From: a virus
IMG/VR virus record: IMGVR_UViG_3300042569_002501
Location: 1 to 27,233 of that record
Reading direction: 5' to 3' (one strand)
DNA length: 27,233 bases
This document shows positions 2,321-5,587 of the stretch, piece after piece. Position numbers and translations under genes: made by a program. The stretch's first letter is position 1, and each line of letters starts with the position of its first letter. Below the pieces are notes generated by a model. The model ran no database searches and was not told where the DNA came from. It saw nothing but the letters and a program-made list of their open reading frames with translations.

Positions 2321-2814
2321 GCGCAGCCGCCCTCGCCCCTGATCTTGCACCGCGTGGCCTGGACACCGGCATTTACGCGCCGCTGCCCAAGCGCGGCACC
2401 AAAGCCGGTGAGCAAATTGCCTGGGCCTTCCCGGAAGAACTCACGAAGCAGGATGCGGGCCACATGGCGCGCGCGATGGTGTCGCTGGGCCTCACGCGGC
2501 GGCTGATGACAGCGCCGCGCTGCGGCACGCCGCTTTGGTATGAAGCGCGGCTGCCCCAGGTGAATGCGCTGCGCGATGACAAGCTGGAATGGCCGGTGCT
2601 GCTGATGGCATCCGCCATGGAAGCGCCCGAACAGCATTCGGTTTGGGTCTGCACTGTCTCCGGTGACTGGATCACGGGTTCGGGCGGTGCGCGGGGGCGC
2701 AGCTTTGTCAGCCTTGGCCAATACATCTGGGCGGTGTCGGAATTTGAAGCCGCGCGGCGCTTGTGCCGGGCGAATGGCTATAGGGGGGTTCCACGTGTCG
2801 GCGACCTTCGATGA
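2317..2814 (+). CDS. hypothetical protein, 165 residues
   Basis: The frame begins at TTG 2317, which overlaps the previous stop (TTGA), so a non-ATG start is likely. The product is mixed alpha/beta: 'ELTKQDAGHMARAMVSLGLTRR' looks like a helical or winged-helix segment, and later Trp/Phe-rich strands ('VWVCTVSGDWITG', 'RSFVSLGQYIWAVSEFEAARRL') follow. I do not recognise the family. Its end overlaps the next gene by 20 bases, so the two are probably co-translated. The position directly before the P-loop ATPase suggests a partner in replication; this is inference. Confidence 0.6.
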   Translation: MSAAALAPDLAPRGLDTGIYAPLPKRGTKAGEQIAWAFPEELTKQDAGHMARAMVSLGLTRRLMTAPRCGTPLWYEARLPQVNALRDDKLEWPVLLMASAMEAPEQHSVWVCTVSGDWITGSGGARGRSFVSLGQYIWAVSEFEAARRLCRANGYRGVPRVGDLR

Positions 2815-4618
2815 TGGATTTGACCGCGCCCTCAATGATGCTGGCAGGCAGTTGAAGGTGGTGGAAGGCGGCAAGGGCAAGCGCCGGGGTGGGGGCGGTG
2901 ATGCTCCGCCGCCCGAATCGCCCCCGCCGGAAGACTTGGATTGGTCCGCCGCGCCTGTGGAATGCCTGGGCGTTAATGGGGAGACCTGGTGGTTTGTGGA
3001 TGCGTATCGGCAGATCATCGCGATCCAGGCTGGCAAGCTTTCCGCGCGCGGCGCGTTGAATGCGCTGCTGGGTGGGGACGCCACGGGTTGGGCGGCGCGC
3101 TATTTCCCGGAGTTCGACAAAGAAGGCATGAAGACCGGGGATTACAGCCCGCGCAAGCTGCACAAGGCCCTGGCTGAACGCATGACAGAGGTGGGGCTGT
3201 TTGACCCCACCACGCCGCGCCGCGGGCCTGGGGTTTGGCTGCATCAGGGCAAGCCCGTGGTGCATGCCGGCGCCAATGTTTTCTTTGCTGATGGGGCGCG
3301 CAAGCCCAGTTTTATTCGGGATGGCATTGCCTATATCGCGGCGCGCGCCATAGCGCAGCCGCATGATGGGCAGGATGGCCGGCCGGAAGCGGGCAGCGCC
3401 GCGCTGGCGGAAGAAGCCGAAGCCATGTTCCGGCAGTGGAATTGGGAAAACGGCGCGTCAGATCGGATGCTGCTGGGTTGGTGGGTGATCGCGAACCTTG
3501 GCGCGCTGGCGCCGATGCGGCCCTTGGCCATGATTGATGGGCAGGAAGGTGCGGGGAAATCCACTCTGTTGGAAATTCTGGCCGCGCTTTGCCCGGCTGG
3601 TGAAATGACGAATGACACCACGGAAGCCGGGTTGCGCCAGCGCATGAATCAGCGCGCGGCGCCGATGATCCTGGATGAATTTGAAGGGGAAGAATTGCTG
3701 CGCGTGTTGGCCATGCTCCGGCGGATTGTGACCGGGGAAGGTAGCCGGTCCTTCCGGGGGCAGGGCAGCCAGACCGCCGTGGTGACAGAAGTGGTGGGCA
3801 CGGCTGTGATGGGCGCCATTGGCGCGCCTGTGGCGAATAGTGCGGAAACCACGCGCATCCTGCGCCTGATGCTCTGGCCCCGCGCCCCCGGTGTGCCAAG
3901 CCTGGAAAAATCCGCCTTGCTATCCTGGTGCCAGAAGGAAGCGCCGGCCTTGTGGGGCCGCGCCATCGCCGCCTGGCCGCGCATCCACGCCAATGCGGCC
4001 ATGATGCGCCTGGTGCTGAACCGTGCGGGCTGTTCGCCGCGATACGCGGATATGCTGGGTTGGCTGATCGGCGCGCGCGAGGCCATGGTGGCTGATCTGC
4101 CCTTGACGGAAGCGCAGGCAGAAGCCGCTCTGGAATGGGCTTGGGGTTGGGTAGTGACGGAAGCTGAACAGGCGGAAGACACCACGGCTGCGCGCTGCCT
4201 GCAGCATCTGATGTCATGCCCCGTACTGACCGGGCCCGGCCATTCGGAAACCGTGGCGGTATTGGTGGAGCGCACCTTGCGCGAACCGGATGCGCCGGCG
4301 GCTAAGCTATTGGCCGAGATAGGGCTGCGACTGGCCCCGTACCCCATTGATGGTGGGGATGCGGCGCGGGTTGGGCTGTATGTGGCAGCCGGGCGAAGGC
4401 CATCGCTGGCCAGGCTGTATCAGCAAACGGAATGGCAGGGCGGGCGCTGGGGCACGGTACTGGCTCAGCTCCGGGCCAGGGTGCGGGATGCGGAGATACG
4501 CGCGCAGCCGATTAAGACCCGCGTGCGGTTTTCAGGGGAGAATGACAGGGCGCAGGCGGTGTGGCTGGCGCCTGAATTGCTGCCTTCGGGCGCGGCAAAG
4601 GGGCTCGGGATGGATTGA
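2795..4618 (+). CDS. P-loop ATPase, probable phage replication helicase/primase-type protein
   Basis: The product is 607 residues long if started at GTG 2795, which has AGGGGGG (2782-2788) six bases upstream; an in-frame ATG at 2774 is possible. Residues about 25-55 form a Lys/Gly/Pro-rich linker. A Walker A motif GQEGAGKST lies at 249-257 (Lys255) and a Walker B-like PMILDEFEGE at 290-299 (Asp294, Glu295). A further Arg-rich region 'MLRRIVTGEGSRSFRGQGSQT' follows and could carry sensor or arginine-finger residues. The C-terminal third is helical. This arrangement fits the ATPase half of phage primase-helicase proteins of the D5/SF3-like kind, with an N-terminal domain I cannot place. The gene runs straight into a repeat-rich candidate origin, which supports a replication role. 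The exact family is uncertain. Confidence 0.68.
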   Translation: MSATFDDGFDRALNDAGRQLKVVEGGKGKRRGGGGDAPPPESPPPEDLDWSAAPVECLGVNGETWWFVDAYRQIIAIQAGKLSARGALNALLGGDATGWAARYFPEFDKEGMKTGDYSPRKLHKALAERMTEVGLFDPTTPRRGPGVWLHQGKPVVHAGANVFFADGARKPSFIRDGIAYIAARAIAQPHDGQDGRPEAGSAALAEEAEAMFRQWNWENGASDRMLLGWWVIANLGALAPMRPLAMIDGQEGAGKSTLLEILAALCPAGEMTNDTTEAGLRQRMNQRAAPMILDEFEGEELLRVLAMLRRIVTGEGSRSFRGQGSQTAVVTEVVGTAVMGAIGAPVANSAETTRILRLMLWPRAPGVPSLEKSALLSWCQKEAPALWGRAIAAWPRIHANAAMMRLVLNRAGCSPRYADMLGWLIGAREAMVADLPLTEAQAEAALEWAWGWVVTEAEQAEDTTAARCLQHLMSCPVLTGPGHSETVAVLVERTLREPDAPAAKLLAEIGLRLAPYPIDGGDAARVGLYVAAGRRPSLARLYQQTEWQGGRWGTVLAQLRARVRDAEIRAQPIKTRVRFSGENDRAQAVWLAPELLPSGAAKGLGMD

Positions 4619-4805
4619 ACTGTCCCGCTGTTTGTACCGCTGACAGGCCGATTTGTCCCGCATGAAGCGGGCAAGTCATTGAAAAGCCTAGATGCGGGAC
4701 AGCGGGACAAGCGGGACAGGGCACTTCCTCATGTGTGTGCGCGCGTCGCATGTGCGCGCATTTAGGAAATAGGTGTGTCCCGCATGTCCCGCTTGTCCCG
4801 GTATG

Positions 4806-4811
4806 TATAAT
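4806..4811 (+). promoter_or_regulatory. TATAAT -10 box, candidate promoter for the gene at 4907
   Basis: A perfect TATAAT lies in the A+T-rich segment 96 bases before the next start codon. No good -35 box is found 16-18 bases upstream; that position is filled by the octamer repeats (4776-4801), so a protein bound to the repeats could activate or repress here. The block could equally be only an easily melted origin segment. Confidence 0.35.
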
Positions 4812-4825
4812 AATAAATGAAATCA

Positions 4826-4845
4826 GATAGATAGATAGATAGATA
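4826..4845. repeat. tetranucleotide repeat (GATA)x5
   Basis: Five perfect tandem copies of GATA lie between the A+T-rich stretch and the last octamers. Simple repeats of this kind are rare in G+C-rich phage DNA and could serve as a DNA-unwinding segment or as a slippage-prone spacer that changes the distance between repeats and promoter. Confidence 0.85.
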
Positions 4846-4906
4846 AGGGACAAAGGGCGGGACAGTTTCTGGTTGGGCGGGACAATTCAGCGAAAGGGGC
4901 GGCGAT

Positions 4907-5587
4907 ATGGCGGAACATCGGGCAGTGAAGGGGATCACCTTGGGGGTTGGCGTGGTCCAGCCGGGCGAGGCGTGGGTGACCGGGGATGGCATGGCTCGGC
5001 ACGCGATTGGAGTGGCCCATGCGCGTGCGATGGCCGAGGAAGCCCGCGCCGTGGCGGCTCAGTGCCACGCAACGCCGTTTTTCAGGGTGCCGGTGCAATA
5101 TGACCCTGAAGCGGCTGTACGGGCAGCGGAAGGGGCGCAGCGCAGGGCCGCGCGGCGGCTGATGTCTGACAAGCTGGCGCAGTTGGCGGAACGGGGAAGG
5201 ATCGGCCAATGCGAATGGCGGGCGGCTTTGGAAATGCGGCACGTGGTTGAATATGCGGAAGGCGGGCGCATGCCGCTGGTTCGGTCTCAGTTGCGGGAAC
5301 GGCTGCCATCTGGGGGCGATGGCACGGGTGAGTTGATTGCCACGGAAGAATTGGTGCGGATCGCCTATGTGCCATGGCGGCGGTATGCTCGGCGGTATCC
5401 AGTGACGAAGGATGCGACGCTCGAAGACCTGACGCGGGGGCCGGTGTTCAATGGCAAGGGGCTCAGGCAAGTGGCGAATGACATCGGGATTGATCAGCGC
5501 CGGGCAGAACGCCTGCTGAGGCGTAGCCTGCACCATTACGCGGGGCTGCGCGGCTGGCCCAATGCGGCGGCGGAAGAATGCTGTTGA
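4907..5587 (+). CDS. phage regulatory protein in the late-regulator (Q) position, DUF6456-like
   Basis: The gene encodes 226 residues from ATG 4907, with AAGGGG about eight bases upstream. The N-terminal 60 residues are variable. From about 75 onward the protein is basic and helical ('AQRRAARRLMSDKLAQLAERGRI'), and the C-terminal part ('FNGKGLRQVANDIGIDQRRAERLLRRSLHHYAGL') has the look of a helix-turn-helix ending in the 'LR-AL--LA-HYGL' style seen in alphaproteobacterial DUF6456 proteins; I give that family only tentatively. It is the last gene before a promoter/terminator pair and the terminase genes, the position of antiterminator or late-activator genes in lambdoid phages. Its own transcription probably starts in the repeat block upstream. 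Confidence 0.55.
   Translation: MAEHRAVKGITLGVGVVQPGEAWVTGDGMARHAIGVAHARAMAEEARAVAAQCHATPFFRVPVQYDPEAAVRAAEGAQRRAARRLMSDKLAQLAERGRIGQCEWRAALEMRHVVEYAEGGRMPLVRSQLRERLPSGGDGTGELIATEELVRIAYVPWRRYARRYPVTKDATLEDLTRGPVFNGKGLRQVANDIGIDQRRAERLLRRSLHHYAGLRGWPNAAAEECC

Follow-up and report, generated by a model that had tools for sequence, protein, structure and literature searches.

SaPI Rep and SCCmec Cch2 bind, through their C-terminal domains, repeats located directly downstream of their own genes, and for SaPI Rep two hexamers have been proposed to assemble at two repeat arms (PMC7581432). In the SaPI/PICI Rep-ori arrangement, two sets of repeats flank an A+T-rich region and the C-terminal domain is the reader. 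A further example is phage P4, in which the C-terminal domain of the primase-helicase alpha recognises short origin repeats; replication of P4 relies on two distinct regions, ori and crr, and alpha carries its own primase. Here, we analysed a viral DNA stretch of 27,233 bases (the window), in which an initial annotation had pointed to a repeat-rich non-coding block next to a P-loop ATPase gene as a candidate replication origin. Our results support this interpretation, with the comparative evidence all pointing to an origin to which the ATPase binds. Judged from sequence comparison, the block is very probably where replication of the phage begins, the ATPase acting as a self-loading initiator helicase with a C-terminal repeat reader.

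The repeat block and the preceding ATPase

The octamer GCGGGACA is present in nine exact copies, all within 4621–4884 and none elsewhere in the window, compared to a mean of 1.47 and a maximum of 6 in dinucleotide shuffles of the whole window. The shuffle mean corresponds to about 0.016 copies per 288 bases, slightly higher than the originally estimated value of less than 0.01, but of the same order. The nine exact octamers and three near copies reported between the ATPase gene and the next gene were all located, the near copies being TGTACCGC (4633–4640) and TGTCCCGG (4794–4801), with one mismatch each, and AAGGGACA (4845–4852), with two. The palindrome of about 108 bp was recovered as an inner palindrome of 108 bp (4694–4801) with three sites on each side of a 57-bp centre, as were TATAAT (4806–4811), the A+T-rich stretch (4802–4846, 18% GC) and five GATA units (4826–4845). 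The proposed layout of three facing copies per side holds for this inner part, but the full array is larger, comprising 12 sites over 264 bp in four triplets (<<< >>> <<< >>>). The first site begins 2 bp past the ATPase stop, and the start-to-start spacing of the sites is 12, 21, 40, 8, 9 / 65 / 9, 9, 51, 12, 20 (slashes set off the central interval). The features, with their basis in brackets, are as follows:

2777–4618, + strand: initiator-helicase-like AAA+ ATPase, 613 aa (phrog matches, AlphaFold2 model, Cch match)
4208–4615, + strand: ATPase C-terminal region, proposed repeat reader (model; covariation in relatives)
4619–4906, no strand: candidate replication origin, 12-site dyad block (sites, layout, relatives)
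4621–4628, − strand: site 1, outer left, exact
4633–4640, − strand: site 2, outer left, one mismatch (exact in 17/17 close relatives)
4654–4661, − strand: site 3, outer left, exact
4672–4684, − strand: IHF-like site in the left arm, CAAGTCATTGAAA, one mismatch to YAANNNNTTGATW
4694–4701, + strand: site 4, inner left, exact
4702–4709, + strand: site 5, inner left, exact
4711–4718, + strand: site 6, inner left, exact
4719–4775, no strand: 57-bp dyad centre, alternating purine/pyrimidine-rich (TGTGTGTGCGCGCG...)
4776–4783, − strand: site 7, inner right, exact
4785–4792, − strand: site 8, inner right, exact
4794–4801, − strand: site 9, inner right, one mismatch
4802–4846: A+T-rich stretch (18% GC) with TATAAT and (GATA)x5, candidate melting region; also in close relatives
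4845–4852, + strand: site 10, outer right, degenerate AAGGGACA
4857–4864, + strand: site 11, outer right, exact
4877–4884, + strand: site 12, outer right, exact
4907–5587, + strand: gene after the block, 226 aa, without a family match (regarded as an ordinary neighbour outside the origin)

Site 10 reads AAGGGACA in the window and at the same place in 17 relatives, never GCGGGACA, and is perhaps a selected weak site beside the A+T-rich stretch. The block has no match to an Rfam family, and GC skew does not change sign at it. A literature search, which covered few subscription papers, found no paper in which GCGGGACA/TGTCCCGC is named as an origin repeat of a phage.

The ATPase reading frame is open from 2663, and its start codon was assigned in this analysis. 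The protein matches phrog_21086 (E 1.4e-83) and phrog_35358, annotated as ‘DNA primase’; no Pfam primase domain was reported for the window ATPase. In a Foldseek search with its AlphaFold2 model, built with 54 family members (pLDDT 86, pTM 0.78), SCCmec Cch (5dgk) came out on top with an E of 6.6e-9, ahead of NrS-1, the SaPI5 primase-helicase, D5 and MCM. VIA-align also ranks 5dgk first (441 residues, span 50–607, Z 16.6, rmsd 5.6), while the sequence match to 5dgk reaches an E of only 0.093. The predicted fold, consisting of an N-terminal domain, an AAA+ core and a C-terminal domain, corresponds to that of Cch-like MCM-type initiator helicases. Modelled alone, the C-terminal region forms two helix-helix-beta-hairpin units. 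A fold search with this isolated domain was considered as proof of a winged helix, but it returned no match in the PDB, so that ‘winged helix’ is a reading of secondary structure alone.

Two further genes lie upstream of the ATPase. One codes for a CII-like transcriptional activator (502–1050; phrog_101, E 1.5e-13), which suggests that the phage is temperate, and the other for a phage-borne GcrA-like cell-cycle regulator (1124–1810; Pfam GcrA E 3.2e-10, above the gathering score).

The block in close and distant relatives

Searches with the ATPase protein yielded ATPases 82–99% identical on 17 contigs, 16 of them viral and one from a Roseomonas MAG. The initial annotation had proposed to look for the octamer block beside homologous ATPase genes, and in all 17 close relatives it lies directly behind the ATPase stop, with exactly 12 sites whose order is unchanged and whose spacing is nearly identical. 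Among 13 sequences of the window's clade, pairwise identity is 98.3% in the octamer columns and 79.2% in the other columns, indicating that the octamers are what selection keeps. The nearest relatives of this clade, L155 and L157 (ATPase identity 66–69%), display near-perfect mirror spacing (10, 12, 42, 8, 9 / 62 / 9, 8, 42, 12, 9 and 12, 20, 41, 9, 8 / 57 / 9, 9, 42, 20, 12, respectively).

Distant loci were fetched from IMG/VR in two sets by ATPase alignment, blind to the octamer; the count covered those in which the sequence continues for at least 350 bp past the ATPase stop, and some of the contigs are near-duplicates. A block of repeated 7-mers was detected behind the stop at 41 of 69 loci in one set and at 54 of 75 in the other, counts exceeding those of each of 20 shuffles in both sets; in about a third of the relatives no repeat block was detected by the 7-mer method. 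The repeat units are diverse, namely, CGGGACA, CTCTACA, CGTTGCA, CGGTACA, CACAACG, GCTGACA, CGTAACA, CGTTACA, CGTAAGA, CCTAACA, CGTGAGA, GGTAACA, TATACAA and others. Their arrangement recurs: an arm with inner sites 8–9 bp apart, then an interval of 40–46 bp and then one of 11–13 bp is found in 36 of 62 blocks, with 20 of the 38 different repeats, whereas gap-order shuffles give a mean of 13 and a maximum of 22 blocks. Both arms have this geometry in 16 blocks (shuffle maximum 6). The window itself, with the spacing given above, fails the strict arm rule used in this count. One locus (L161, on the same contig as L093) has the usual spacing, but its inner-group repeats face away from the centre, opposite to those of the window. 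Octamer-pair matches across IMG/VR were discarded as evidence, since a reversed control pattern gave at least 120 matches against 115, and only clusters adjoining ATPase genes count.

The initial annotation had set its reading against relatives that keep the ATPase and carry unrelated sequence after it. In the distant relatives the repeat does differ, but it occupies the same place and often retains the same geometry, and the proposed reader domain differs along with the repeat in those carrying other repeat sequences. Among relatives the repeat sequence has been rewritten while the arrangement was kept, and this rewriting apparently went hand in hand with changes at the helicase C-terminus.

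The arms, which make up 44% of the block length, contain 14 of the 15 exact matches to the IHF consensus WATCAANNNNTTR and 46 of the 49 matches with at most one mismatch. Within strict arm gaps there are 13 exact matches, whereas 300 letter-permuted patterns give 0.29 on average, and the runner-up among the latter, AWTCRANNNNTTA, is itself almost identical to the IHF pattern. These permutations replaced a single permuted control, WTACAANNNNTTR, which had many near matches because it resembles some of the repeats. The window has one IHF-like site, with one mismatch, and many relatives have none.

Which protein reads the repeat

It had been left open whether the ATPase or a neighbour binds the block; of the two, the ATPase is better supported. 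Across 61 loci, the genes found next to the block fall into 28 families, and no gene other than the replication ATPase is common to the array-bearing loci, which makes the ATPase the constant partner. In one subfamily, C-termini are more similar in same-repeat pairs at equal body identity (residual +0.061, permutation p 0.0025); the segment preceding the C-terminus shows no such effect in the same comparison (p 0.63). The best of 527 alignment columns for repeat class is position 512, immediately preceding a conserved Phe, where the residue is R with CGTAACA/CGTTACA, Y with CGTAAGA/CGTGAGA, W with CCTAAC-/CGTTAGG and otherwise mostly S or C, although such column tests are confounded by shared ancestry and other columns score too. 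Over the whole C-terminal domain, a median test for enrichment of covarying columns was not significant (p 0.58). Two pairs of loci differ mainly at the repeat and the C-terminus. L362 and L387 are 97% identical in the ATPase body and 65% in the C-terminal region, with flanking genes 72–97% identical; their repeats are CGTAACA and CGTAAGA, with TRF and VYF, respectively, at the key position. L350 and L353, also 97% identical in the body and with next genes 100% and 97% identical, have TGTAACA and TATACAA, with VRF and VKY. A swap of the downstream gene between unrelated proteins was ruled out, the two types of that gene being 57% identical. From these data we infer that the repeat is read by the C-terminal domain of the ATPase.

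The position of the block, just upstream of a gene and a terminase-head operon, would also suit operators through which a regulatory protein of the phage, perhaps encoded by the next gene, controls late genes. Cooperative operators can be repeated, and the 226-aa protein has a weak sigma-like match in NCBIfam (E 0.029). However, no sigma-70 promoter was found in the block, TATAAT not being part of one, and the turnover of the next gene beside a constant ATPase gene does not fit a regulator encoded there. Moreover, the repeats covary with the ATPase C-terminus, and the next gene of L350 and L353 is 100% identical despite the changed repeats. We consider control by operators very unlikely. A role in packaging (cos/pac) is the least probable of the alternatives. 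Phage lambda cosB combines repeated terminase sites with an IHF site, and a terminase small subunit could bind the present repeats with IHF in the same way; indeed, terS (phrog_57) lies about 0.9 kb downstream of the block in the window. In other families, by contrast, what follows the block is not terminase but a processivity factor of DNA polymerase or a tail gene, and the repeat varies together with the ATPase.

Arrays with the core GGGACA also occur beside unrelated AAA_25/RepA-like and DnaB-like helicases, as might be expected if the origin were read by another factor, a small phage or host protein that recruits the ATPase. Yet the array-bearing loci have only the replication ATPase in common, and one C-terminal residue of the ATPase covaries with the repeat. 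The AAA_25-class arrays differ in spacing and were picked by the octamer search itself, and unselected AAA_25 relatives carry other repeats (GCGTGACA, GGGGGAGA) or none, for which reasons a GGGACA code common to all helicase classes was rejected as well. Recruitment by another factor is, in our estimate, marginally less probable than the operator function.

Several arrays in other phages are of separate interest. The lytic Escherichia phage SSL-2009a (Dhillonvirus; L133:6374–6474) has seven GGGACA repeats, mostly GCGGGACA, directly after its replicative helicase-primase gene, forming a candidate origin in a phage that is convenient for laboratory work. In our view, AAA_25 helicase loci with GCGGGACA arrays, such as this one, are a parallel and not the same system, as the spacing differs. 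Arrays after a replication ATPase were also observed in Rhizobium phage RHph_X2_25 (L140:6170–6600), Salmonella phage STP-1 (L141:6290–6600), Bdellovibrio phage phi1422 (L145:5350–5700) and Synechococcus phage MinM1 (L134:5713–5948), with the units GCGTGACA, GGGGGAGA, GGTAACA and GCTCACA. The gene order of MinM1 resembles that of the window (ATPase, array, gene, gene before terL, terL), and the gene after its array (L134:5949–6578), in the position of the window's 226-aa gene, looks by eye like a NusG/RfaH-type antiterminator. Three unusually large arrays (L051:9266–10752, L068:509–1959 and L076:6938–8350), in which about 45–54 copies of GGGACA form two clusters separated by 662 bp, adjoin a protein of ~740 aa, which has no Pfam match in L051.

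The putative origin and known systems

For an origin bound by the ATPase, the following mechanism can be envisaged. The gene before the block would encode an initiator helicase that loads by itself and belongs with the Cch/MCM-like and D5-like proteins, with the octamer recognised by its C-terminal domain. The 12 sites in two mirror arms, each with three outer and three inner sites, suggest that two hexamers could assemble, one per arm, as proposed for SaPI Rep. A bend in the ~40-bp stretch between the outer and inner triplets, probably made by IHF in many relatives, would bring the outer sites onto the inner ones. Melting may then occur at the centre or in the neighbouring A+T-rich stretch, and loading of the two hexamers would lead to bidirectional replication.

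What is new, we infer from sequence, is a fixed 12-site dyad in tailed phages, the repeats of which are recoded together with the reader domain. It seems rather likely that these loci represent a large family of tailed-phage origins with constant geometry (12 sites, two six-site arms, IHF-bent, two hexamers), a freely drifting recognition sequence and a co-changing C-terminal reader. The joint rewriting of all repeat copies, accompanied by change in the reader, suggests that origin specificity changes over evolution in the manner of immunity or incompatibility types. With the findings on this locus, phrog_21086, a family without known function, likely comprises initiators, and origins of ATPase relatives could be found by a simple rule, a 12-site mirror array behind the ATPase stop. 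Furthermore, natural pairs differing mainly in repeat and reader would make the protein–DNA recognition code and origin compatibility directly testable, and the geometry amounts to a testable statement on the placement of two helicase rings at an origin.

Among known systems, the primase-helicases of vaccinia (D5), NrS-1 and ASFV share the helicase domain fold of the ATPase but have a fused primase, and we know of no repeat origin of the window's kind for them. P4 alpha resembles the proposed system in that the C-terminal domain of a helicase binds short origin repeats; a second, P4-like repeat region could lie outside the window. SCCmec Cch provides the best whole-chain fold match of the window ATPase, although the Cch2 module has only three AAGTG repeats, compared to 12 sites here, and neither the CCPol-MP pair nor the recombinase context of SCCmec was seen in the annotated part of the window. 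With SaPI/PICI Rep-ori, the locus has in common an initiator-type helicase and a putative short-repeat origin directly 3′ of its gene. Its two mirror arms surround a 57-bp centre, with the A+T-rich stretch located in the right arm and not in the centre. It differs in belonging to a tailed phage with terminase large subunit and portal genes rather than to a satellite. Overall, the block appears to be a putative origin functionally like SaPI/PICI Rep-ori and SCCmec Cch2, distinguished from the former by its 12-site dyad, IHF-like arms and a repeat recoded among relatives at constant geometry.
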